10,522 bases of DNA from Streptomyces sp. NRRL WC-3549 (GTDB lineage Bacteria > Actinomycetota > Actinomycetes > Streptomycetales > Streptomycetaceae). Both the position numbers and the translations under genes were made by a program. The stretch covers positions 66,895-77,416 of the forward strand of contig NZ_KL585396.1 in assembly GCF_000721935.1 (NCBI RefSeq), given 5' to 3'. This document shows positions 1 to 10,522 of this stretch, one piece after another; positions within the stretch are counted from its first letter, which is position 1; each line of letters begins with the position of its first letter. Under the pieces are notes generated by a model. The model was not told where the DNA came from and searched no databases. It saw only the letters and a list, made by a program, of their open reading frames with translations.

Positions 1-3000
1 GCCGCCCGCCGTTCGATGGTGGCCGAGCGGTTCGCCGAGCTGGCCGCCGCGGTCCTGCGCACCGGCGCGGACCGCGTCGACATGGCGAGCGGCCTCGGCA
101 CGCTCGGCCTCGACTCACTGCTCGCCATGGAACTGCGGGCCCGGGTCCACGCCGAACTGGGCGTGGCCCTGCCCGTGGTCGCCCTGCTGAGCGGCACCCC
201 GGCCGGTGAGCTGGCCGCCCAGCTCCACGACGGACTGACCGCCCTGGTCGCGGCCGAGGACCCCGACGGCACGACCGGCGCCGTCGAACTGCACCACGAC
301 GAGCGCCAGTACCCGCTGACACAGAACCAGAAGGCGCTCTGGTTCCTGAAGCACCTCAACCCCGACGGCTACGCCTACAACATCGGGGGAGCCGTCGAGG
401 TCTCCGTCCCCCTCGAACCCGACCTGATGTTCGAGGCCGTCCGCCGGCTGATCGCACGGCATCCGGCGCTGCGCACCAACTTCCTCCTGGAGGACGGCCG
501 GGCCGTCCAGCGGGTCTCCCCGGACGTGGAGCCCGACCTCGCCCTCTTCGACGTGCAGGACCAGGACTGGGACACCATCCACCGGACGATCGTGGCCGAG
601 TACCGCAAGCCCTACGACCTCGCGCACGACCCGCTCGTCCGCTTCCGCCTCTTCAAACGCGCGCCGGACCGCTGGGTCATCATGAAGGCCGTCCACCACA
701 TCGTCTCCGACGCGATCTCCACGTTCACCTTCATCGAGGAGCTCTTCGAGGTGTACGAGGCGCTGCGGCAGGGACAGGAACCGCGGCTCGAACCGGTGAC
801 CGCACGCTACCTGGACTTCCTCAACCAGCAGAACGAGTTCCTGGCCGGCCGCGAGGCCGCGGGGATGCTCGACTACTGGCGCTCCCACCTGCCGGCCGAG
901 GTCCCGCTCCTCGACCTGCCCACCGACAAACCCCGCCCGGCCGTCCAGACCCACAACGGCGCCTCGGAGTTCTTCGAACTCGACACCGAGCTCAGCGCAC
1001 GCGTGCACGCGCTGGCCCGCGCCCACCACGTCACCCCGTTCATGGTGCTGCTGAGCGCGTACTACCTCCTGCTCCACCGGTACTCCGGGCAGGACCACAT
1101 CATCGTGGGCAGCCCCGTGACCGGCCGTACCCGCCAGGACTTCGCCTCCGTGTACGGCTACTTCGTCAACCCGCTTCCCCTGCACGCCGACCTCTCGGGC
1201 GATCCGACGGTCGGCGAACTGCTGGAGCAGGTCCGCCGGACGGTGCTCGGCGGCCTGGACAACCAGGAGTACCCCTTCGTCCTCCTCGTCGAGGAACTGG
1301 GCCTCCAGCACGACCCCAGCCGCTCGGCGGTCTTCCAGGCCATGTTCATCCTGCTGACCCACAAGGTGGCCACCGAGCAGTACGGATACCGCCTGAACTA
1401 CATTGAACTGCCCGAAGAGGAAGGGCAGTTCGACCTCACGCTGTCGGCGTACGAGGACGAGTCCGAGCATCGCTTCCACTGCGTGTTCAAGTACAACACC
1501 GACCTCTTCCTCCCGCAGACCGTCCGGCGGATGGCCTCCCACTACACCCGGCTGCTCGACCGGATGACCCAGGCGCAGGGCGACGCGGCAGCCTCCCGGC
1601 TGGAGATGCTCGACGAAGCGGAACGGGAGCGGCTGGCCGGACAGTGGAGCCGCCCCGCGCTGCCCCCCGCCGGCTCCGCCCCGGGCTCCGGGAGCGGCGA
1701 GACGGCCTTCCTGCCCGTCCACACCCGGATCAGCCGCGTCGCCGCCGCCCGCCCCGAGGCCGTCGCCGTCACCGTGCCCTCGCCGGACGGCGGGGCCAGG
1801 CGACTGACCTACGGGGAACTGGAACGCCGGGCCACCGAGTGCGCCCGTCGGCTGCGCGCCCTCGGGGTCACGGGCGGCTCGGTGGTCGCGCTCCGGCTCG
1901 ACAAGTCACCCGAGATGGTCATCACCCTCCTCGCCGTGCTGAAGGCGGGCGGGGCCTACCTCCCGGTCCAGCCCGACCAGCCCGCCGACCGGCTGGCGCA
2001 CCTCCTGCGGACCACCGGAGCGGTGCTCGTCGTGGACGGCGCCACGGGCCCGGACCCGGCCGGCGCCTCGCCCGTCGCGACGGTGGGACTCGACGTACTG
2101 CACGCCGCCCCGCCGGAACCGCACGCCTCCCCGGGACAGGGGAGCGGTCCCGCCGAGGACGTCCACCCGGGCTCTCCCGCGTACGTCATCACCACCTCCG
2201 GTTCCACCGGTCGGCCCAAGGCCGTCCGGGTCGGTCACGGCAGTCTCGCCTCGGCGTACACCGCGTGGCGGGACACCTACCACCTGGAGCGGGACACCCG
2301 GGTGCACCTCCAGATGGCCGGACCGTCGTTCGACGTGTTCACCGGCGACCTGGTCCGCGCGCTGTGCTCCGGCGGGAACCTCGTCCTTGCCGACCGCGAC
2401 CTCCTCTTCGACACCCCGCGGCTCTACCGGACGATGCGTCAGGAGCGAGTCGATTGTGCCGAGTTCGTGCCTGCGGTGGTGCGCGGCCTGATGGACCACT
2501 GCGTCAGGGAAGGGCTGCGGCTGGACTTCATGCGGCTGCTGGTGGTCGGCTCGGACGCCTGGAACGTGGGGGAGTACCGGAGGCTGAGCGAGCTGTGCGG
2601 CCCGGCGACCCGGCTCGTCAACTCCTACGGCCTGACCGAGGCGACCGTGGACAGCGCGTTCTTCGAAGGCCCCGTCGACGACCTGGAACCAGGACTGATG
2701 GTGCCGATCGGCCGGCCCCTGCCCAACAGCACGCTCCACGTCCTCGACGCCCACGGCGAGCCCGTACCGCCGGGGGTCCCCGGCGAACTCTGGATCGGCG
2801 GCGACGGAGTGGCCCTCGGATACGCGGGCGACCCGGAGGAGACCGCACGGCGCTTCGTCACCCGCACCCTCAGCCGCAGGCCGGACGCCACGCCCGAACG
2901 GCTCTACCGGACCGGTGACGTCGCCCGCTGGGACGCACACGGCCGCGTCCACCTCCTGGGCCGCACCGACGGGCAGGTGAAGCTGCGCGGCCACCGCATC

Positions 3001-3721
3001 GAGATCGGTGAGATCGAAGCACACCTGGACCGGTGGCCCCCACTGGCCCGGGCCGTGGTCACGGTCCGCACCGGCACCGGGGGCGACACCGCCCTCTGCG
3101 CCTACTGCGTCCCGGCCCCCGGCACCGCGCTCGACCGACGGGCGCTGAGGCGCCACCTGGCCGCCTCCCTGCCCTCGTACATGATCCCGTCGTACATCGT
3201 CCAGGTGCCCGAACTGCCGCTCACCGCCAACGGCAAGGTCGACCTCGCGGCACTGCCCGCCCCCGCCGCGGAGACGCGCGAGCGACCCCACGAGCCCCCG
3301 GCCACCGTCTACGAGGTCGGCGTGGCACGGATCTGGCAGGAACTCCTGGGCCTCGAACAGGTCGGTCTCGAGGACGACTTCTTCGAGGCCGGGGGCAGCT
3401 CGATCAAACTCATCGAACTCCTCCACCACCTGCGCACCGAATTCGGCGTCTCCGTCCCCGTCAGCCGCCTGTACCGCACCACCACCCTGCACGGCATGGC
3501 GGCGACGGTGGAGGAGGTCCTGCACGGCACGAGCGCCGACGAACTTCCCTACCTGGCCTTCAACCCCGGCCGGTCCACGCTCCTCTTCGCCTTCCCGCCC
3601 GCCGGCGGCCACGGACTCGTCTACCGCGGCCTCGCCTCCCACCTCCCGGAGTACGCCGTCATAGGCTTCAACTACCTCCCCGGCGACGACAAGGTGATCC
3701 GGTACGCCGACCTCGTCGAGT
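1..3721 (+). CDS. ftdB: Hybrid PKS-NRPS of PTM biosynthesis, 3' part (ACP-C-A-PCP-start of TE); open at the left edge
   Basis: The protein joins polyketide chains to L-ornithine on the way to a tetramate macrolactam. The frame is open from base 1 with no stop, so the ATG at 16 is probably internal and the upstream PKS domains lie outside the window. Domains in order: a PKS-type ACP with GLDSL (Ser codon 115-117); a full condensation domain from about 307 to 1650 (LTQNQKALWFL, RHPALRT, HHIVSDA at 694-714, VGSPVTGR, YGYFVNPLPL); an adenylation domain from about 1700 to 3250 (TTSGSTGRPKA, FDVFTGDL, NSYGLTEATVD, YRTGDVARW, NGKVDL); a PCP with GGSSIKL (Ser codon 3400-3402); and the start of a thioesterase (LLFAFPPAGG). 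The ten-residue specificity code reads DVGELVSVDK, close to the ornithine code DVGEIGSIDK. The real reading frame ends at the adapter junction at 3722. The PTM assignment rests on domain order plus the downstream genes. Confidence 0.92.
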
Positions 3722-3755
3722 CTGTCTCTTATACACATCTGTGTATAAGAGACAG
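3722..3755. other. Nextera/Tn5 mosaic-end adapter junction (sequencing or assembly artefact)
   Basis: Bases 3722-3740 match exactly the engineered 19-base Tn5 mosaic end CTGTCTCTTATACACATCT. Bases 3741-3755 are the inverted copy lacking its first four bases, so the block is a 34-base palindrome with 15-base arms around ATCT. The mosaic end is a laboratory hybrid of the natural Tn5 outer and inner ends and is used in Nextera libraries. The block is AT-rich, unlike everything around it, has no transposase nearby, and shows no 9-base target duplication on its flanks. In the upstream frame it translates to SVSYTHLCIRDS, a peptide familiar from contaminated assemblies. It sits inside the thioesterase coding sequence and joins frame 1 to frame 3. 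Confidence 0.97.
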
Positions 3756-4187
3756 CGGGAACGCCGCGGCCGCCGCGTGGCCCACGTCCTCGTCCTGGAC
3801 TCCCGGCGCATCCTGGAGCCGTACGCCCCGGGGGACGAAGGAATCCGGGTCTTCGAGGACGAACTCGCCGAGCACCTGCGCAAGCACACCGGCTCCGAGG
3901 CCGTCGCCCGCGAGACGCTCGCCCACGCGGCCGAGTACCTGACCTTCTGCGGACGCACCCCCAACACCGGCACCGTCTCCGCCGCGGTCAGCGTCATCAC
4001 CGACGAGGAGAAGGCCTCCCTGTACGCCGCCGGCGAACGGGGCACGTGGCACGGCAGCTCCACCGGCGCCACCACCGTACTGCGCGGCTCGGGCACCCAC
4101 GCCGACATGCTCGACCCCAAACACCTCGCCCGCAACGCCGAGCTGGTGCGCGCCCTGCTGACGGGGGACGCGGTCCATGGCGGATGA
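3756..4187 (+). CDS. ftdB: C-terminal part of the PKS-NRPS thioesterase domain, after the adapter junction
   Basis: This is the continuation of the same PKS-NRPS in another frame, not a separate gene: there is no start codon or ribosome site at its left end. It begins RERRGRRVAHVLVLDSRR, the usual strand that follows the nucleophile helix in NRPS type I thioesterases, and ends near the catalytic histidine in SGTHADML (His codon 4098-4100). The segment with the GxSxG nucleophile is absent. By comparison with typical thioesterases about 25-30 residues are missing. In PTM synthases this domain takes part in release and formation of the tetramate. The stop codon at 4185-4187 lies inside the next gene, an 11-base overlap. 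The true gene is probably intact in the organism. Confidence 0.88.
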   Translation, partial: RERRGRRVAHVLVLDSRRILEPYAPGDEGIRVFEDELAEHLRKHTGSEAVARETLAHAAEYLTFCGRTPNTGTVSAAVSVITDEEKASLYAAGERGTWHGSSTGATTVLRGSGTHADMLDPKHLARNAELVRALLTGDAVHGG

Positions 4188-5865
4188 CGGCCCCACCGAC
4201 TGGAACAGCCGTGAGCGCGCGCCGGGCACACCGCCACGCGTCATCGTCATCGGCGCGGGCGTCGCCGGCCTCGCCACCGGCTGCTACGCCCAGATGAGCG
4301 GTGCCCGCACCCGGATCTTCGAGAAGCACGTGCTGCCCGGCGGCTGCTGCACCGCCTGGTCGCGCGACGGCTACCTCTTCGACTACTGCATCGAATGGCT
4401 GATCGGCACCGCCCCGGGCAACGATGCCCACCAGGTGTGGCGCGAACTGGGCGCCTTCGACGGCAAGACGATGACCAACTTCGACCTCTTCAACAAGGTG
4501 GAGGACGCGAGCGGCCGGTCCGTGACGTTCTACAACGACCCGGACCGGCTCGAAGCCCACCTGCTGGAACTCTCGCCCGCCGACTCCGGGCCCGTCCGGG
4601 CGTTCACCCGCGACCTGAGACGGTTCACCCGGATCGACCTGTACCCGTTCCTGACCGCGCCCCCGCTGCGCACGGTGCGGGAGAGGGCGGCGCTGCTGCG
4701 CACGGTCCTGCCCGCCTTCCGGCTGTTCTGGCGCACGGCCGCGACCCCGATGCACACCTTCGCCGACACGTTCCAGGACCCGCTCCTGCGCCAGGCCTTC
4801 CGCAACATCTTCTTCCAGGACCCGGAGGGCTTCCCGCTCCTGCCGTACCTCTTCAACATGGCCGCCGCCCACCACCACAACGCCGGTTTCCCGCAGGGCG
4901 GGTCACTGGGTCTCGCCCGGTCCGTCGAGGAGCGCTACCTCGGCCTCGGCGGCACGGTCACCTACCGGGCCCGCGCCGAAAAGGTCCTCGTGGAGAACGG
5001 CCGCGCCATCGGCGTCGAGCTCAGGAACGGCAGGCGCCACTACGCCGAACACGTCGTGTCGGCCTGCGACGGCCACACCACCGTGTACAAGCTGCTGGGC
5101 GGCAGGTACACCGGCCCCCGGATCGAGAAGCTCTACGACGACCTGATCGGACGTCCCGGCACTCTCTTCCCGGCGGTCGTCTCCGCCTTCGTCGGCATCC
5201 GCGGCCCGTACGGCGAGGGGGAGGCGCACAGCACCACCCACCTGCTGTCCGCCGACGACGCGGCCGCACTGCCCGGCGCCCTGCAGAACAGCCTGGTCGT
5301 CCAGGTGCGGTCCCGCTACTCCGACGGATTCGCCCCGCCCGGCCACAGCGTCGTGCACTGCACCTACTTCAGCGACTTCGCCTACTGGAAGGAGCTGCGC
5401 ACCCGGGACCGCAAGGAGTACCGGGCCCGCAAACGCCAGGTCGCCGCCTTCGTCCGCCGCTTCCTGGAGCGCCGCACGCCGGGGCTGGCCGGACGCATCG
5501 AGCTCGTCGACGTGGCCTCGCCCGCCACGACCCACCGGTACACCGGCAACCACGACGGTTCGATCCTGGCCTGGAAGGCATTCTCCGACGCCGACGACGT
5601 CGCGGCACGGCTGGTCGGCAAGGACCGTATGCGGCTGCCCGGGCTGAGCGGTTTCTCCATGGCCGGCCAGTGGGTCGGCATGGGCGGCCTGATCCGCGCC
5701 GCCTCCACCGGCCGCTTCGCCACCCAGTACCTCTGCCGCGAACTCGGCCTGGAGTTCCGGGCGTGGGAGAGCGACGGGCACGCCGCCGAGCCCTGGCATC
5801 CGGGGAAGCTGGGGCACCTGCCCCAGCTGGACCGCTGGTCCGCACGGGAGGGAACCGGCACATGA
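4177..5865 (+). CDS. ftdC: Phytoene-dehydrogenase-like FAD oxidoreductase, PTM ring-forming enzyme 1
   Basis: The protein has 562 residues, in the normal range for CrtI/phytoene-desaturase-like oxidoreductases. An N-terminal Rossmann motif, VIGAGVAGLATG with GxGxxG at residues 26-31 and an acidic residue at Glu49, binds FAD. It is followed by PGGCCTAW (54-61), in the place of the family's GG-rich loop. The C-terminal FAD motif is GQWVGMGGLIRA (497-508). No signal peptide or membrane segment is obvious, so it should be cytosolic. In PTM clusters such enzymes catalyse reductive cyclisation of the polyene tetramate to form the outer carbocycles; which ring this one closes cannot be read from sequence. 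The ATG at 4177 overlaps the PKS-NRPS stop and is preceded by a weak GGGGGA. It is clearly paralogous to the next gene. Confidence 0.93.
   Translation: MADDGPTDWNSRERAPGTPPRVIVIGAGVAGLATGCYAQMSGARTRIFEKHVLPGGCCTAWSRDGYLFDYCIEWLIGTAPGNDAHQVWRELGAFDGKTMTNFDLFNKVEDASGRSVTFYNDPDRLEAHLLELSPADSGPVRAFTRDLRRFTRIDLYPFLTAPPLRTVRERAALLRTVLPAFRLFWRTAATPMHTFADTFQDPLLRQAFRNIFFQDPEGFPLLPYLFNMAAAHHHNAGFPQGGSLGLARSVEERYLGLGGTVTYRARAEKVLVENGRAIGVELRNGRRHYAEHVVSACDGHTTVYKLLGGRYTGPRIEKLYDDLIGRPGTLFPAVVSAFVGIRGPYGEGEAHSTTHLLSADDAAALPGALQNSLVVQVRSRYSDGFAPPGHSVVHCTYFSDFAYWKELRTRDRKEYRARKRQVAAFVRRFLERRTPGLAGRIELVDVASPATTHRYTGNHDGSILAWKAFSDADDVAARLVGKDRMRLPGLSGFSMAGQWVGMGGLIRAASTGRFATQYLCRELGLEFRAWESDGHAAEPWHPGKLGHLPQLDRWSAREGTGT
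5846..5854 (+). promoter_or_regulatory. Ribosome binding site of ftdD
   Basis: GGGAGGGAA ends seven bases before the ATG at 5862. The open frame extends upstream to about 4395 as a shadow of ftdC, so this site and the ATGA overlap decide the start. Confidence 0.75.
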
Positions 5866-7628
5866 CCGACGCCACGAGCGGGACCGGCCCGGGCACCACC
5901 GGCCGCAGAGAGACGATGATCATCATCGGCGCCGGCCTCGGCGGGCTGTCCACCGGCTGCTACGCCCAGATGAACGGGTACCGCACCCGCGTCCTGGAGA
6001 TGCACGAACTGCCCGGCGGCTGCTGCACGGCCTGGGACCGCGGCGGCTTCACCCTCGACTGCTGCGTCAGCTGGCTCCTCGGCAGCGGCCCCGGCAACGA
6101 GATGCACCAGATCTGGCTGGAACTCGGGGCTCTGCAGGGCAAGGAGATCCGCCACTTCGACGTGTTCAACATCGTGCGCGGCCAGGACGGCCGAGCCGTC
6201 CACTTCTACTCCGACCCCGACCGGCTGGAGGCGCATCTCATCCAGCTCTCACCCGCCGACGCCAGGACGGTGCGGAAGTTCTGCTCCCAGCTGCGCGCCT
6301 TCCGCAAAGCACTGGCCGTCTACCCCTTCCTCAAACCCGTCGGCCTGATGGGCCGCACGGAACGCTGGCGGATGCTCGCCTCGTTCCTCCCGTACGTCAA
6401 CGCCGTGCGCTCCACCCTCACCGTCCTGATGACCGACTTCTCGGCACGGTTCAAGGACCCGCTCCTGCGGGAGGCGTTCAACTTCATCCTGTACGAGAAG
6501 CACCCGGCCTTCCCGGTGCTGCCGTTCCACTTCCAGCTCGCCTCGCACGCCAACCTCTCCGCGGGCGTGCCCGAAGGCGGCTCACTCGGCCTGGCCGAGT
6601 CGATCGAACGCCGGTACCGCCGTCTCGGCGGCGAGGTCTCGTACAACACCAAGGTCGAGACCGTGATCGTGGAGGACGACCGTGCGGTGGGCGTCCGGCT
6701 CAGTGACGGACGCGAACTGCGCGCGGACATCGTGGTGTCGGCGTGCGACGGATACACCACGACCATGAAGTTCCTGGGCGGCCGCTACCTCGACGACACC
6801 TACCGGCGCCTGTACACCCGCACCATCCAGGAACCGGGCATGGTCTTCCCCGGCTACTTCACCCTGTTCCTCGGTCTCTCCCGGCCGTTTCCCGAGGGGG
6901 ACCCCTGCACGACCTACCTGCTCGACGAGGCCACGGCCGACCGGCTCACCGGCATCCGCCACCCGAGCATCAACGTCCAGTTCCGCAGCCGCCACTACCC
7001 TGAGCTCTCACCGAGCGGGACCACCGTCGTCTACGCCACCTACTTCTGCGACATCGCCCCGTGGCGGGCCCTGGACGAGGGCCCGGAACAGGTCACCCGC
7101 ACCCGCGGCGGCGAGGAACTCCACACCCTCCCCGTGCGCCACGGACGCGGCTACTACGCGGCCAAAAGGCGGGCCCGCGAGACGCTCGTGGACTTCCTGG
7201 AGCAGCGCTTCCCCGGCATCCGGGACGCGATCGTCGTCCGCGACGTCTCCAGCCCCCTCACGCAGGTCCGCTACACCGGCAACTACGACGGCACGGTCCT
7301 CGGCTGGCAGCCGTTCGTGGAGAGCGGGGAGACGCTGGAAGCGCTGATCAAGAAGCACGGCCCCGGCCTGCCCGGGCTGCGGAACTTCTACCAGTCGGGC
7401 GTATGGGCGACCACCGGAGGACTGATCCGGGCCGCCGCCGCCGGACGCCACGTCATGCAGTTCGTCTGCCGCGACGACGGCAGGCCCTTCACCGCCTCGG
7501 TGGACCGCAGCGCGCCTCCGCCGACCCACCGCGTCATTCCCGTACCGGAACGCCCCGGCCCCCGCACCACGGACGGGCGGCGGAGCACGAGCGCAGGGAC
7601 GACAGGGAAGGCAGGAAAGACCACATGA
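5862..7628 (+). CDS. ftdD: Phytoene-dehydrogenase-like FAD oxidoreductase, PTM ring-forming enzyme 2
   Basis: The protein has 588 residues and is a paralogue of the preceding gene. Shared blocks include TGCYAQM, ELPGGCCTAW in place of VLPGGCCTAW, GGSLGLA and VSACDG. The FAD-binding GxGxxG is at residues 23-28 (IIGAGLGGLS), Glu46 ends the second strand, PGGCCTAW is at 51-58, and the C-terminal FAD motif is GVWATTGGLIRA (513-524). Two differences stand out: an insertion of about 15 residues after DIAPWRALDEG, encoded near 7075-7140, and a Pro/Arg/Thr-rich tail of about 50 residues after FVCRDDG that looks disordered. In PTM pathways a second enzyme of this family usually goes with a second ring closure. 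The start overlaps the ftdC stop as ATGA, which suggests translational coupling. Function is assigned by family and position. Confidence 0.92.
   Translation: MTDATSGTGPGTTGRRETMIIIGAGLGGLSTGCYAQMNGYRTRVLEMHELPGGCCTAWDRGGFTLDCCVSWLLGSGPGNEMHQIWLELGALQGKEIRHFDVFNIVRGQDGRAVHFYSDPDRLEAHLIQLSPADARTVRKFCSQLRAFRKALAVYPFLKPVGLMGRTERWRMLASFLPYVNAVRSTLTVLMTDFSARFKDPLLREAFNFILYEKHPAFPVLPFHFQLASHANLSAGVPEGGSLGLAESIERRYRRLGGEVSYNTKVETVIVEDDRAVGVRLSDGRELRADIVVSACDGYTTTMKFLGGRYLDDTYRRLYTRTIQEPGMVFPGYFTLFLGLSRPFPEGDPCTTYLLDEATADRLTGIRHPSINVQFRSRHYPELSPSGTTVVYATYFCDIAPWRALDEGPEQVTRTRGGEELHTLPVRHGRGYYAAKRRARETLVDFLEQRFPGIRDAIVVRDVSSPLTQVRYTGNYDGTVLGWQPFVESGETLEALIKKHGPGLPGLRNFYQSGVWATTGGLIRAAAAGRHVMQFVCRDDGRPFTASVDRSAPPPTHRVIPVPERPGPRTTDGRRSTSAGTTGKAGKTT
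7613..7619 (+). promoter_or_regulatory. Ribosome binding site of ftdE
   Basis: AGGAAAG lies five bases before the ATG at 7625, inside the 3' end of ftdD. It supports this start over the long upstream extension of the same frame, which is an ftdD shadow. Confidence 0.7.
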
Positions 7629-8680
7629 AGATCAAGAAGTGGGTGGTCCGCGAGCACGTCGAGGGCGTGCCGGACGTGGGCCGGGTCTACGAGAAGGTCG
7701 TCGAGGACCTCGACGTGGACCTGGCCCCCGACGAGATGCTCCTGCGCACGCTGTACGTCTCGGTCGACCCCTACCTCCAGGGCATCGCCCTGGACACCCC
7801 GCTCGGCGGCCACATGGGAGCCGACTCGATCATGGAGGTGCTGGAGGCCGGGCCGCTCGCCGCCCACCGCGCCGGCGACCTGGTCCAGGGATTCGGAGGC
7901 TGGCGCTCCCACCTCGTCGGTACGGGTGCCGCGGAACTCTGGCAGACCGGGACCTTCCCCATGGTCTTCCCCGCCTACCGCAGGCTGGACCCCGCCCGGT
8001 ACGACGACGCCCTGCCGCTCACGACCGCCCTGAGCGCGATGGGCGGCCCCGGCATGACGGCCTGGGGGACCCTCACCAAGTACATGACCGTCAGGCCCGG
8101 CGACACCTTCGTCATCAGCGGGGCGTCCGGCGCGGTGGGCACGCTCGTCGGCCAGCTCGCCGCACGCGCGGGCGCCCGGGTCGTCGGCACCACGTCGTCC
8201 CCGCAGAAGGCGGACCACCTCACCGGGCTCGGATTCGACGCGGTCGTCACCTACCGGCACGGAGACAGCACCGACACCATCGGCAGGGCGCTCGCGAAGG
8301 CGGCCCCCGACGGCGTCGACCGGTACTTCGACAACCTCGGCGGCACCGTCACCGACGCGGTCTTCCCGATGCTCAACGTCGGCGGCCAGGTGGCCGTGTG
8401 CTGGCAGTGGGCGACCCAGGTGGGCAACGAGGGCGTCGGGCCACGCCTCCTGCCCTACCTCATGTTCCCGCGCGCGACCGTCCGCGGGATCTTCTCGCTG
8501 GAGTGGTTCACCGAAGAGAACTGGCAGGCCCTCCATACCGAACTCGGCGGCAGTATCCGGCGCGGCGAGGTGGTCTGCGACCACACCCTCCACCACGGCT
8601 TCGACGCCATCCCCACCGCCTACGACAGCCTCTACCGCGACCGCGCGGTCAACCGGGGGAAGGTGCTCGTCGAACTCTGA
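7625..8680 (+). CDS. ftdE: NAD(P)H-dependent medium-chain reductase, PTM ring-closing enzyme (IkaC/FtdE-like)
   Basis: The 351-residue protein belongs to the medium-chain dehydrogenase/reductase superfamily, in the branch of leukotriene B4 12-hydroxydehydrogenase / prostaglandin reductases. The features are LYVSVDPYLQG (43-53), MTAWGTL (144-150), the nucleotide-binding loop GASGAVGTLVGQLA (166-179) and YFDNLGG (234-240). It has only two cysteines (259 and 318) and none of the zinc-ligand pattern of classical alcohol dehydrogenases, so it should be a zinc-independent enoyl-type reductase even though PTM literature often calls it an alcohol dehydrogenase. The known ikarugamycin homologue IkaC closes a carbocycle by NADPH-dependent reductive Michael-type cyclisation; the same class of role is inferred here. 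The start overlaps the ftdD stop as ATGA. The next gene follows after 62 bases. Confidence 0.93.
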   Translation: MKIKKWVVREHVEGVPDVGRVYEKVVEDLDVDLAPDEMLLRTLYVSVDPYLQGIALDTPLGGHMGADSIMEVLEAGPLAAHRAGDLVQGFGGWRSHLVGTGAAELWQTGTFPMVFPAYRRLDPARYDDALPLTTALSAMGGPGMTAWGTLTKYMTVRPGDTFVISGASGAVGTLVGQLAARAGARVVGTTSSPQKADHLTGLGFDAVVTYRHGDSTDTIGRALAKAAPDGVDRYFDNLGGTVTDAVFPMLNVGGQVAVCWQWATQVGNEGVGPRLLPYLMFPRATVRGIFSLEWFTEENWQALHTELGGSIRRGEVVCDHTLHHGFDAIPTAYDSLYRDRAVNRGKVLVEL

Positions 8681-8731
8681 CGGCCACGCCTCCCCCCGAC
8701 GCACTCGTACGCACATCCGACCGCCACGGCC

Positions 8732-8738
8732 GAGGAGG
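8732..8738 (+). promoter_or_regulatory. Ribosome binding site of the P450 gene
   Basis: GAGGAGG lies four bases before GTG at 8743 and is the strongest such site in the window. It fixes a GTG start for the P450 and rejects the upstream extension of the frame, which runs through ftdE in another frame. Confidence 0.8.
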
Positions 8739-8742
8739 TCCA

Positions 8743-9948
8743 GTGACCACCACCGAACAGCCGCCCACCGCCCCCGCGCAGGCGGCTCCGGTCCCGATGC
8801 ACCGCCTGCGCTTCGAGGAACCCGGCCCGCCCCGCCCCGCCGAACTCCCCGACGGATCCCCCGCCTGGCTGGTCAGCCGGTACGCCGACGTCCGGCAGGT
8901 GCTCTCCGACACCCGCTTCGGCCGGGCGCGGCTGTACGCGGACGAGGCACCCGCCCTCTTCGACGCGCCGGACATCGTGAACAACCCCGACCTGATGTTC
9001 AACCAGGACGGGCCCGACCACCTCCGGCTGCGCCGCACCCTGCGCCGCGCCTTCACGCCGAGGGCGGTCGCCCGCTGGCGGCCGTGGATCGCCGAGATCG
9101 TGGAACAGCTCCTCGACGGGCTGGCCGGGCAACCACGGCCCGCCGACGTGGTGGAGACGTTCACCCTGCCGCTCCCGGTGGCCGTCATCAGCCGGCTGAT
9201 GGGGCTCGACGCCTCCGTCCGGGACCGGCTGCGGCACTGGAGCGAGCACGCCTTCTCGGACGGTTCCCACGAAGGGGGCCAGGTGGAGGCCGTACTGGAC
9301 GAGTTCAGTGCCTTCGGCGCCCGCCTCCTCGCCACGCGGCGGCTGGATCCCGGTGACGACCTGATCAGCGGCCTCGTCCGGGCGGCCGACGCGGAGGGCG
9401 GCATCCCCGAGGCGCAGTTGGTGAGCCTGGTGTGCGGGCTGGTCGTCGGCGGCCACGACAGCACGATGACCATGCTCGGCAACGGGCTGCTGTACCTCCT
9501 GGGCGAACGGCCCGACGCCTGGGAGCGGCTGGGCCGCGACGAGGAGGCGGCCGCGACCGTCGCGGACCGGCTCATCCACCTCGTCCCGCTGGGGGACGAC
9601 CGGGGCTCGGCACGTCACGCCTCCCTGCCGGTGGAGGTCGGCGGGGTGACGATCCCGGCCGGAGCGGTCGTGCTCGCCGACTGCGGCATGGCCAACCGCG
9701 ACCCGGCCGTCTTCCCGAGCGGTCTCGCCGACGGGCTCTTCACCCCGCTGGAGGCACCCACGCTCTCGTTCGGGGCGGGCGCGCACTACTGCCTCGGCGC
9801 GTGGCTGGCCCGGGTGGAACTCCAGACCGCCCTGCACCGACTGGCCGCCCGCTTCCCGGGCCTGCGCCTGGCGGAACCCGTGGACGCGGTCACCTGGCGT
9901 ACCGGAACCACCTCCCGCAGCCCGCAGCGACTCGACGTGACCTGGTAG
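8743..9948 (+). CDS. ftdF: Cytochrome P450, PTM tailoring oxygenase with a non-canonical K-helix
   Basis: The 401-residue protein has the usual length of a soluble bacterial P450 and no membrane anchor. The heme-binding loop FGAGAHYCLG (343-352) is intact, with Cys350 as iron ligand. The C-helix HxxxR is present (His93-Arg97), as are the I-helix GGHDST (236-241) and the ANRDPAVF region (317-324). Two core positions differ from the family. Where the K-helix should read ExxR before V/I-P-L, the protein reads R276-L-I-H279. The I-helix residue normally Thr is Ser240. The DNA here shows no frameshift and the flanks align well to standard P450s. In PTM clusters the P450 acts late, oxidising the finished macrocycle; the site cannot be predicted here. 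It starts at GTG with a strong ribosome site and is the last gene before the terminator. Confidence 0.94.
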   Translation: MTTTEQPPTAPAQAAPVPMHRLRFEEPGPPRPAELPDGSPAWLVSRYADVRQVLSDTRFGRARLYADEAPALFDAPDIVNNPDLMFNQDGPDHLRLRRTLRRAFTPRAVARWRPWIAEIVEQLLDGLAGQPRPADVVETFTLPLPVAVISRLMGLDASVRDRLRHWSEHAFSDGSHEGGQVEAVLDEFSAFGARLLATRRLDPGDDLISGLVRAADAEGGIPEAQLVSLVCGLVVGGHDSTMTMLGNGLLYLLGERPDAWERLGRDEEAAATVADRLIHLVPLGDDRGSARHASLPVEVGGVTIPAGAVVLADCGMANRDPAVFPSGLADGLFTPLEAPTLSFGAGAHYCLGAWLARVELQTALHRLAARFPGLRLAEPVDAVTWRTGTTSRSPQRLDVTW

Positions 9949-9962
9949 CCCGCCCGCACTCC

Positions 9963-10006
9963 GCACGGGTGTTGCCGGTGGACGGACCCACCGGCAACAC
10001 CCGTGC
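9963..10006. terminator. Perfect 19-bp inverted repeat, likely terminator of the PTM operon
   Basis: Bases 9963-9981 (GCACGGGTGTTGCCGGTGG) are the exact reverse complement of 9988-10006, around a six-base loop ACGGAC. It begins 14 bases after the P450 stop codon and has no T-tract on the plus strand, as is common for Streptomyces hairpin terminators. A perfect stem can work in both directions, so it may also end transcription coming leftwards from the minus-strand remnant. Confidence 0.85.
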
Positions 10007-10046
10007 CGGAGCGCGCCCGGTGCCCTCGGCGCACGGCACCGGCCGG

Positions 10047-10166
10047 AGCCGCCACGAGTTCGCGCTGCCGCCTCGCCAAGGACTCGACGCGGGTGGCCCG
10101 CTCCGCCGTGATCACGTCGCAGACCCAGTCCCAGTGCACCGGGACCAGGGCGCCGGTCGCCAGGCC
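10047..10166 (-). pseudogene. Remnant resembling the C-terminus of a DUF6390-type protein
   Basis: Read from 10166 leftwards, the frame gives GALVPVHWDWVCDVITAERA and then RVESLARRQRELVAA. The block HWDWVC followed by a short amphipathic stretch resembles, from memory, the C-terminal end of DUF6390 family proteins, which occur beside hydrogenase maturation genes in actinomycetes. There is no start codon or N-terminal domain, the frame joins the hypE remnant directly, and no stop follows before the hairpin. I read it as the tail of a gene mostly lost by deletion. The family assignment is tentative; the block could also be a divergent end of the hypE remnant. Confidence 0.4.
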
Positions 10167-10522
10167 GGAGGTCGACACGGCACGCGGAGCGGCCCAGGCG
10201 GTGGGTCCGGAGCGCCGCGAGCACCTGGCCCCGGCCCCGGGCGGTACGACCGCGATCAGTTCGCCCTCGTTGACCACCTGCGGCGGGTCGGGCCCGAGCA
10301 GTGCGCACGCGTCCCGCACCGCCTCGGGCACCGGCAGCGAACCCTCCACCCAGTTCGATGCCCACCGACGAGGCCCGGGCGATCTCGTTGAGCGAGGCCG
10401 AGACACCGCCGCGGGCCGGATCGCGCGGCACGTGCAGATCCGCACCGGTGGCGCTCACGTCGACCCGTCGGGCTGTGGGCGTCGTTCGCCACCCGGCCGG
10501 GCCCCGCCCCGGCGCTCCCCGC
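10157..10522 (-). pseudogene. hypE: Frameshifted fragment of hypE ([NiFe]-hydrogenase maturation protein)
   Basis: HypE, an AIR-synthase-like ATPase, dehydrates the thiocarbamoyl group to make the cyanide ligands of [NiFe] hydrogenases. On the minus strand, pieces of its C-terminal half appear in order but in changing frames: VANDAHSPTG; then ATGADLHVPRDPARGGV and SLNEIARASSVGIEL; then VEGSLPVPEAVRDACALLG and VVNEGELIAVVPP; then VLAALRTHRLGRSACRVDL. Frame changes fall near 10460-10470, at 10344-10353 (one extra G in CTGGGTGG would explain it) and near 10221-10231 (one missing base). The usual C-terminal end PRIC is absent. Codon third positions remain GC-rich, so the decay looks recent, or the region contains sequence errors. 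The fragment continues past the right edge. It is unrelated to PTM synthesis. Confidence 0.78.

Follow-up and report, generated by a model that had tools for sequence, protein, structure and literature searches.

A Streptomyces P450 without the K-helix ExxR motif, from a clade in which the E-R-R triad appears to be lost

Introduction

How does a cytochrome P450 persist without the K-helix ExxR motif, and is what persists still a heme enzyme? The question is raised by the P450 encoded near the end of a 10,522-nucleotide stretch (the window; contig NZ_KL585396.1, positions 66,895 to 77,416 of the forward strand) from the draft genome of Streptomyces sp. NRRL WC-3549. ExxR is a near-invariant K-helix signature of the P450 superfamily, and its Glu and Arg, together with one Arg of the meander, make up the E-R-R triad. 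Passages of PMC3990721 describe ExxR as holding the meander. An initial annotation of the window had reported that the motif is missing here, with R-L-I-H standing in its place. The evidence set out below makes it probable that this is a heme-thiolate P450, the final tailoring gene of a polycyclic tetramate macrolactam (PTM) operon, and that it belongs to an actinobacterial clade whose lock between K-helix and meander has been dismantled.

The K-helix

Is the motif really absent, or does the K-helix lie elsewhere? In all five alignments displayed by HMMER against P450s of known structure, of which the best match by sequence scores 246 bits, the RLIH stretch faces E-L-L-R or E-L-T-R. Two AlphaFold2 models, one built on 134 aligned rows of mixed type (predicted local distance difference test, pLDDT, 90.9; predicted template modelling score, pTM, 0.90) and the other from 72 RxxH rows only (pLDDT 88.4, pTM 0.88), agree on a helix of residues 267-280 with both 276 and 279 inside it. 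Inspection of the query sequence found no E..R pair within that helix, so there is no sign of another segment serving as the K-helix.

Nor is the replacement peculiar to the window. Arg and His occupy 276 and 279 in all 121 rows formed by the best 120 of 822 homologs plus the query, a set that also contains the window's own shorter record (P0002), and one scan of a species-level genome collection gave RxxH at 43 of 44 loci, the exception (L052) being a Citrobacter P450 of 28% identity with ExxR. The clade-wide alignment that the initial annotation had proposed thus bears it out. The two residues are variously encoded in 64 RxxH loci (Arg by CGG in 40, CGC in 17, CGT in 5 and CGA in 2; His by CAC in 55 and CAT in 9), which, as these loci were chosen by their R..H pattern, is informative only for synonymous spread.

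Could R-L-I-H nevertheless be an error of sequencing or assembly? The assembly is certainly poor, with 282 copies of the Nextera mosaic end, one of them in the window at 3722-3755. However, identical residues recur in independent genomes, the complete record of Streptomyces sp. SirexAA-E included, and the orthologs in S. griseus NCTC13033 (79% identity), S. albidoflavus (70%) and SPB074 (60%) are all RxxH, so that an error is refuted and its probability is negligible. Codons, HMMER alignments and homolog rows agree: the absence of ExxR from this P450 is confirmed as real.

Distribution and phylogeny

How widely is the altered motif spread, and how did it come about? A match at E <= 1e-75 was found in 38 of 246 Streptomyces genomes, and the 40 matches in total comprise RxxH proteins plus a group of 54-58% identity that reads V/A-E-Q-L-L-R, i.e., QxxR. 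When genomes of the class (394) and of the order (391) were searched at E <= 1e-72, matches above 380 bits were confined to Streptomyces and one more genus of its family (G785); proteins matched elsewhere than in this family reach about 250 bits and carry ExxR. Two further protein searches (best 120 of 331 and best 120 of 1586) enlarged the RxxH and QxxR groups. After the removal of duplicates from 468 sequences of at least 330 amino acids, 414 were left, with RxxH in 239, QxxR in 136, ExxR in 30, NxxR in 4, RxxR in 2, HxxR in 2 and WxxH in 1.

Since the RxxH group is defined by its motif, the invariance of RxxH is a finding only in combination with a tree. That tree was built from 98 of 100 representatives picked, L007 and L052 having been removed beforehand. 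It contains a single non-ExxR clade (75 rows, support 100/100), which divides into an RxxH branch with the sole WxxH protein inside it (36 rows, 100/98) and a QxxR-derived sister branch (39 rows, 98/89). The same three groups return, at 100/100, 100/97 and 97/87, when the columns of K-helix and meander and five long outgroup rows are left out. Many members of the sister branch are from Kitasatospora, and outside the family it extends to Amycolatopsis (P0200, QxxR) and Actinokineospora (P0206 and P0207, NxxR); its Gln at 276 varies to Asn, His or Arg, and all 144 sequences retain the K-helix Arg. In the supported RxxH branch R and H are maintained across 50-100% identity. Taken together, the two branches indicate that one actinobacterial clade lost the Glu and the meander Arg, and that one branch of it fixed R..H. 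At position 276 the route may have been from Glu through Gln to Arg by single base changes (GAG-CAG-CGG), and a single change (CGC-CAC) would have sufficed for Arg to His at 279.

The WxxH member (L137, genome G785, 7678-8817) has an I-helix altered to SGSDSV, and at its locus a stretch resembling a PTM synthase starts at 15120, with 68% identity over the part covered.

The meander

What became of the third member of the triad? Meander positions are numbered here backwards from the heme-loop Phe (F-8, F-6 and so on), and L052 is omitted from the 30 ExxR rows. F-8, eight residues before F343 in the window P450, is Arg in 28 of 29 ExxR rows and in none of the 239 RxxH or 144 sister rows, where it is Pro in 236 and 129 respectively; in the aligned meander Arg column all 30 ExxR rows have Arg. 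An Arg or Lys anywhere from F-10 to F-4 occurs in 11 of 239 RxxH rows and in a single one of the 144 sister rows; in three of those rows, that of the FtdF-like SPB074 locus included, the Arg is one place off, at F-9. By these counts the meander Arg is gone from its place throughout the sampled non-ExxR clade, and clade-wide loss of the E-R-R triad is, as judged from the alignments, nearly certain. The initial annotation had taken the surrounding residues to be intact, which is true of heme loop and reading frame and does not extend to the remodelled meander with its lost Arg; likewise it had rightly seen the loss of ExxR, though as a change in one enzyme, whereas a large clade has it fixed, with the whole triad replaced.

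With the triad gone, the meander would now be held by other contacts, and the first candidate is a charge-swapped pair, R276-E337. One can imagine the lock kept in space with its charges exchanged, R276 (with H279) pairing with the meander acid E337 in roughly preserved geometry. This is a tentative proposal. An acid at F-6, two residues past the lost Arg, marks 209 of 239 RxxH rows as against 11 of 144 sister and 2 of 29 ExxR rows; its absence from the other 30 RxxH rows means that a charge swap is no general requirement. Perhaps, then, though the chances are rather against it, the clade consists of active P450s in which the triad gave way to a charge-inverted lock by way of a QxxR intermediate, which is still present in the sister clade and already without the meander Arg. 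If that were so, the P450 fold would not require ExxR, which would be one way among several of keeping the meander in place.

Heme contacts and selection

Is the protein still a P450 in more than ancestry? A P450 fold is predicted for it by the AlphaFold2 models, and Pfam PF00067 is matched at 57.1 bits (cut-off 22.8), with the best stretch covering residues 290-371 only, beyond the K-helix. Its gene has an open reading frame, and the heme loop is in place. Throughout the 240 RxxH/WxxH rows H93, R97, G237, H348 and C350 are invariant, and Cys350 is conserved in the 144 sister rows as well; H93, R97 and R291 are the residues which, from family knowledge, we take to be heme propionate contacts. 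GGHDST stands in the I-helix of all 121 rows of the homolog alignment, and among the 240 rows position 239 is Asp in 234, 240 is Ser or Thr in 240 and 241 is Thr in 228. The heme Cys is kept, as are the contacts to the heme propionates and the acid-alcohol pair of the I-helix, so the most likely prediction is an active P450 whose meander has been rewired.

Alternatively, might this be a conserved folded protein that is not a monooxygenase, either a P450-derived helper comparable to the glycosyltransferase activators or a scaffold for the oxidoreductases that cyclise PTMs? TIGR04515, the family of such activators, does align, scoring 92 bits where the cut-off is 343, and is one of 8 NCBIfam families listed for this protein, all under their cut-offs. 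P450-derived helper proteins typically lose the Cys ligand, however, and here the Cys, the heme-loop His, Gly237 and the H93/R97 pair are invariant and the I-helix residues 239 to 241 nearly so. No activity was found on record in the Creative Commons (CC)-licensed literature, and the available passages of PMC8399814 go no further than speculating on a role of SkoE in cycloaddition, which is what a helper would lead one to expect; even so, it is an unlikely account.

Could the lock instead have been lost because the enzyme is unneeded and the gene is a pseudogene or in slow decay? Proteins missing a motif have been taken as pseudo-P450s (passages of PMC7369989), 9 of the 20 other PTM stretches yielded no P450 (contig ends cut some of them), and in 6 of 7 comparisons the ratio of nonsynonymous to synonymous substitution rates (dN/dS) is higher for the P450 than for the gene beside it. 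The ratio of the P450 is nevertheless 0.22-0.41 (NG86, against seven orthologs), and the gene is under purifying selection; 40 of 40 Streptomyces matches lack an internal stop, 63 of 64 RxxH loci are full length, and R and H are held down to 50% identity over a supported branch. Decay is thus very improbable, as the initial annotation had judged.

The preferred reading, as an active enzyme with its meander rewired, has points to be set against it. Position 291 is other than Arg in 41 of 240 RxxH/WxxH rows of this alignment. The neighbouring dehydrogenase has a dN/dS of 0.14-0.36, so constraint on the P450 is somewhat weaker. The order of residue changes is unproven by the tree, and of the 30 RxxH rows lacking an F-6 acid, 27 have no acid nearby at all. 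In most P450s tested, according to passages of PMC3990721, mutation of the signature Cys, Glu or Arg gave inactive, misfolded protein. Finally, the CC-licensed literature yielded no activity, spectrum or structure for any member of the clade, though the main PTM enzymology papers may hold a test of FtdF or SGR810. On balance, the conserved residues and dN/dS point to a working heme enzyme, a prediction made from sequence.

Genomic context

What would such an enzyme act on? The P450 is the final gene of an operon in the order polyketide synthase/non-ribosomal peptide synthetase (PKS/NRPS), two flavin adenine dinucleotide (FAD) oxidoreductases, alcohol dehydrogenase (ADH), P450, and all five PTM operon genes are present at 41 of 43 RxxH loci. 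Of the two that deviate, L046 has only the dehydrogenase, and that divergent, and L047 is without PKS/NRPS on a 6.6-kb contig. Because of the operon, a PTM is most likely the substrate, and the enzyme would bind heme and oxidise the PTM scaffold; available passages (PMC8399814; see also PMC6950151) give C-12 hydroxylation by PtmE' and C-14 dehydrogenation by FtdF as predicted roles, both unverified in 2021. Operon position and orthologs thus uphold the assignment as a PTM tailoring P450 made at the outset, with the oxidation itself predicted. The PTM cluster of S. albus J1074 has XNR_0200 as its P450 gene (passages of PMC5575351).

Is RxxH then general to PTM P450s? The PTM FAD gene occurs in 36 of 246 Streptomyces genomes, 21 of which also have an RxxH match. 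Twenty other PTM stretches come from the remaining 15 genomes, from G045 (whose RxxH gene is on another contig) and from four further genomes, and all 11 P450s from these have ExxR, so the generality is rejected. Among the 11, that of L174 is separated from the dehydrogenase by about 5 kb and that of L175 bears more resemblance to an unrelated P450, which leaves 9 to 10 that are clear tailoring genes. As IkaD and CftA have ExxR too, PTM clusters appear to harbour two P450 lineages, a canonical one and another that lacks the triad.

A common cluster context for the whole non-ExxR clade was also considered and is rejected by the loci L082 and L090. At L090 a QxxR P450 is in a small NRPS cluster, and at L082 (3490-10874) another lies between Mrp antiporter subunits and a gene for an EF-G-like GTPase, in no evident biosynthetic cluster; the open reading frame layout of L085 resembles that of L082. 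No PTM genes were seen at the sampled QxxR sister loci. Even within RxxH, the copies at L088 and L089 are without nearby PTM genes.

Some arrangements are more unusual. L133 (G888) has two relatives about 8 kb apart (4518-5657 and 13371-14525), one closing a PTM operon (70% identity) and the other adjoining it (55%). In the case of L046/L092 (S. sulfonofaciens) and L175 (G045 C17), an RLIH P450 and a PTM-type dehydrogenase, divergent, are on one contig, and the PTM synthase and FAD genes of the same genome are on a different one, which showed no dehydrogenase.

Other features of the window

Coordinates are collected in the table. Just 5' of the GTG start of the P450 gene, at 8732-8738, is GAGGAGG, which is like a ribosome site. 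In the PKS/NRPS, carrier, condensation, adenylation and carrier are domain matches, and the thioesterase start is assigned from the PTM synthase domain order given in passages of PMC8399814.

Table. Features of the window; residue numbers are those of the P450
Feature	Position	Strand	Remarks
Hybrid PKS/NRPS, 3' part	1..3721	+	carrier, condensation, adenylation, carrier, putative thioesterase start
Phytoene-desaturase-like FAD oxidoreductase 1	4177..5865	+	
Phytoene-desaturase-like FAD oxidoreductase 2	5862..7628	+	
Zinc-type alcohol dehydrogenase, PTM operon	7625..8680	+	
P450 gene, 401 amino acids, FtdF/SGR810/SkoE type	8743..9948	+	GTG start at 8743, stop at 9946-9948
C-helix H93 to R97	9019..9033	+	both invariant in RxxH/WxxH rows
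I-helix D239-S240 in GGHDST	9457..9462	+	acid-alcohol pair in variant form
K-helix, residues 267-280	9541..9582	+	two AlphaFold2 models
R276-L-I-H279 where ExxR belongs	9568..9579	+	cgg ctc atc cac, translated
R291	9613..9615	+	Arg in 199/240 RxxH/WxxH rows, 144/144 sister rows
P335, where the meander Arg of the E-R-R triad would stand	9745..9747	+	eight residues before heme-loop F343
E337 (F-6), meander acid marking most of the RxxH clade	9751..9753	+	candidate partner of R276
Heme loop FGAGAHYCLG, Cys350 ligand	9769..9798	+	matches FxxGxxxCxG

The mosaic-end copy in the window is a palindrome (the 19-base end, then its partial reverse complement) that interrupts the PKS/NRPS close to the 3' end of the gene and disrupts its reading frame; it is an assembly artefact with no biology. 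In the 7.3 Mb source genome the exact copies number 147 forward and 135 reverse, and one is at another P450 gene, at position 1479 of locus L007, which also has 456 N. With such heavy adapter contamination of the assembly, gene calls in this genome are unsafe. On the minus strand at 9949-10522 is part of another gene, apparently spread over two frames, with a weak match to DUF6390 (26.6 bits, cut-off 25).

Comparison with known systems

ExxR serves as an entry test for P450s, and this clade would fail such filters despite belonging to a well-studied pathway. A Streptomyces survey counts the Glu in all 1625 P450s and deems 34 others fragment or pseudo P450s (passages of PMC6408508), and a second excludes, as pseudo-P450s, proteins with only one of the two motifs (passages of PMC7369989); filtering on the motif may be why the clade went unnoticed. 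Its lack of ExxR gets no mention in the CC-licensed passages on PTM P450s, and among the CC-licensed listings and passages covered CYP157 is the only bacterial family named as ExxR-less, though passages of PMC3599690 add S. virginiae Svu002, in which no K-helix motif was identified. The clade suggests that the lock is exchangeable in P450s that evolution preserves and, with RxxH, QxxR and ExxR states placed on a supported tree, the purpose of ExxR becomes testable with natural enzymes.

The initial annotation had cited CYP157 as precedent, fairly insofar as it too is a Streptomyces P450 family that persists without ExxR, and ExxR-less proteins of its type have proved functional (passages of PMC3990721). 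Its motif, however, is EVLW or EQSLW (passages of PMC3599690), with the Arg lost and the Glu kept, so its change differs from the RxxH change: the window P450 is without Glu, Arg and meander Arg and has no E-x-x-W. The source genome has one CYP157-like protein (L188, NEVLW by eye); ExxR stands in L002-L008, L180, L181 and, as ETLR, L176, and also in the very weak L187 (19 bits), and a second frame of L181 is partial, without the K-helix.

From the PTM P450s FtdF, SGR810, SkoE and PtmE' no difference was seen in operon position or gene set, the FtdF/SGR810 type being assigned by way of the S. griseus NCTC13033 and SPB074 loci rather than the named SGR810 or FtdF records. These orthologs are the part of the PTM grouping in the initial annotation that holds; IkaD, also grouped there, and CftA (PDB 8jnc, 8jnp) differ, having EELMR and the meander Arg in a canonical triad at 34 and 35% identity. 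Closest in what they have lost are the QxxR sister P450s which, like the window P450, are without the Glu and the meander Arg, and which, unlike it, retain the K-helix Arg and have an I-helix Glu in 144 of 144, followed by Thr in 122.
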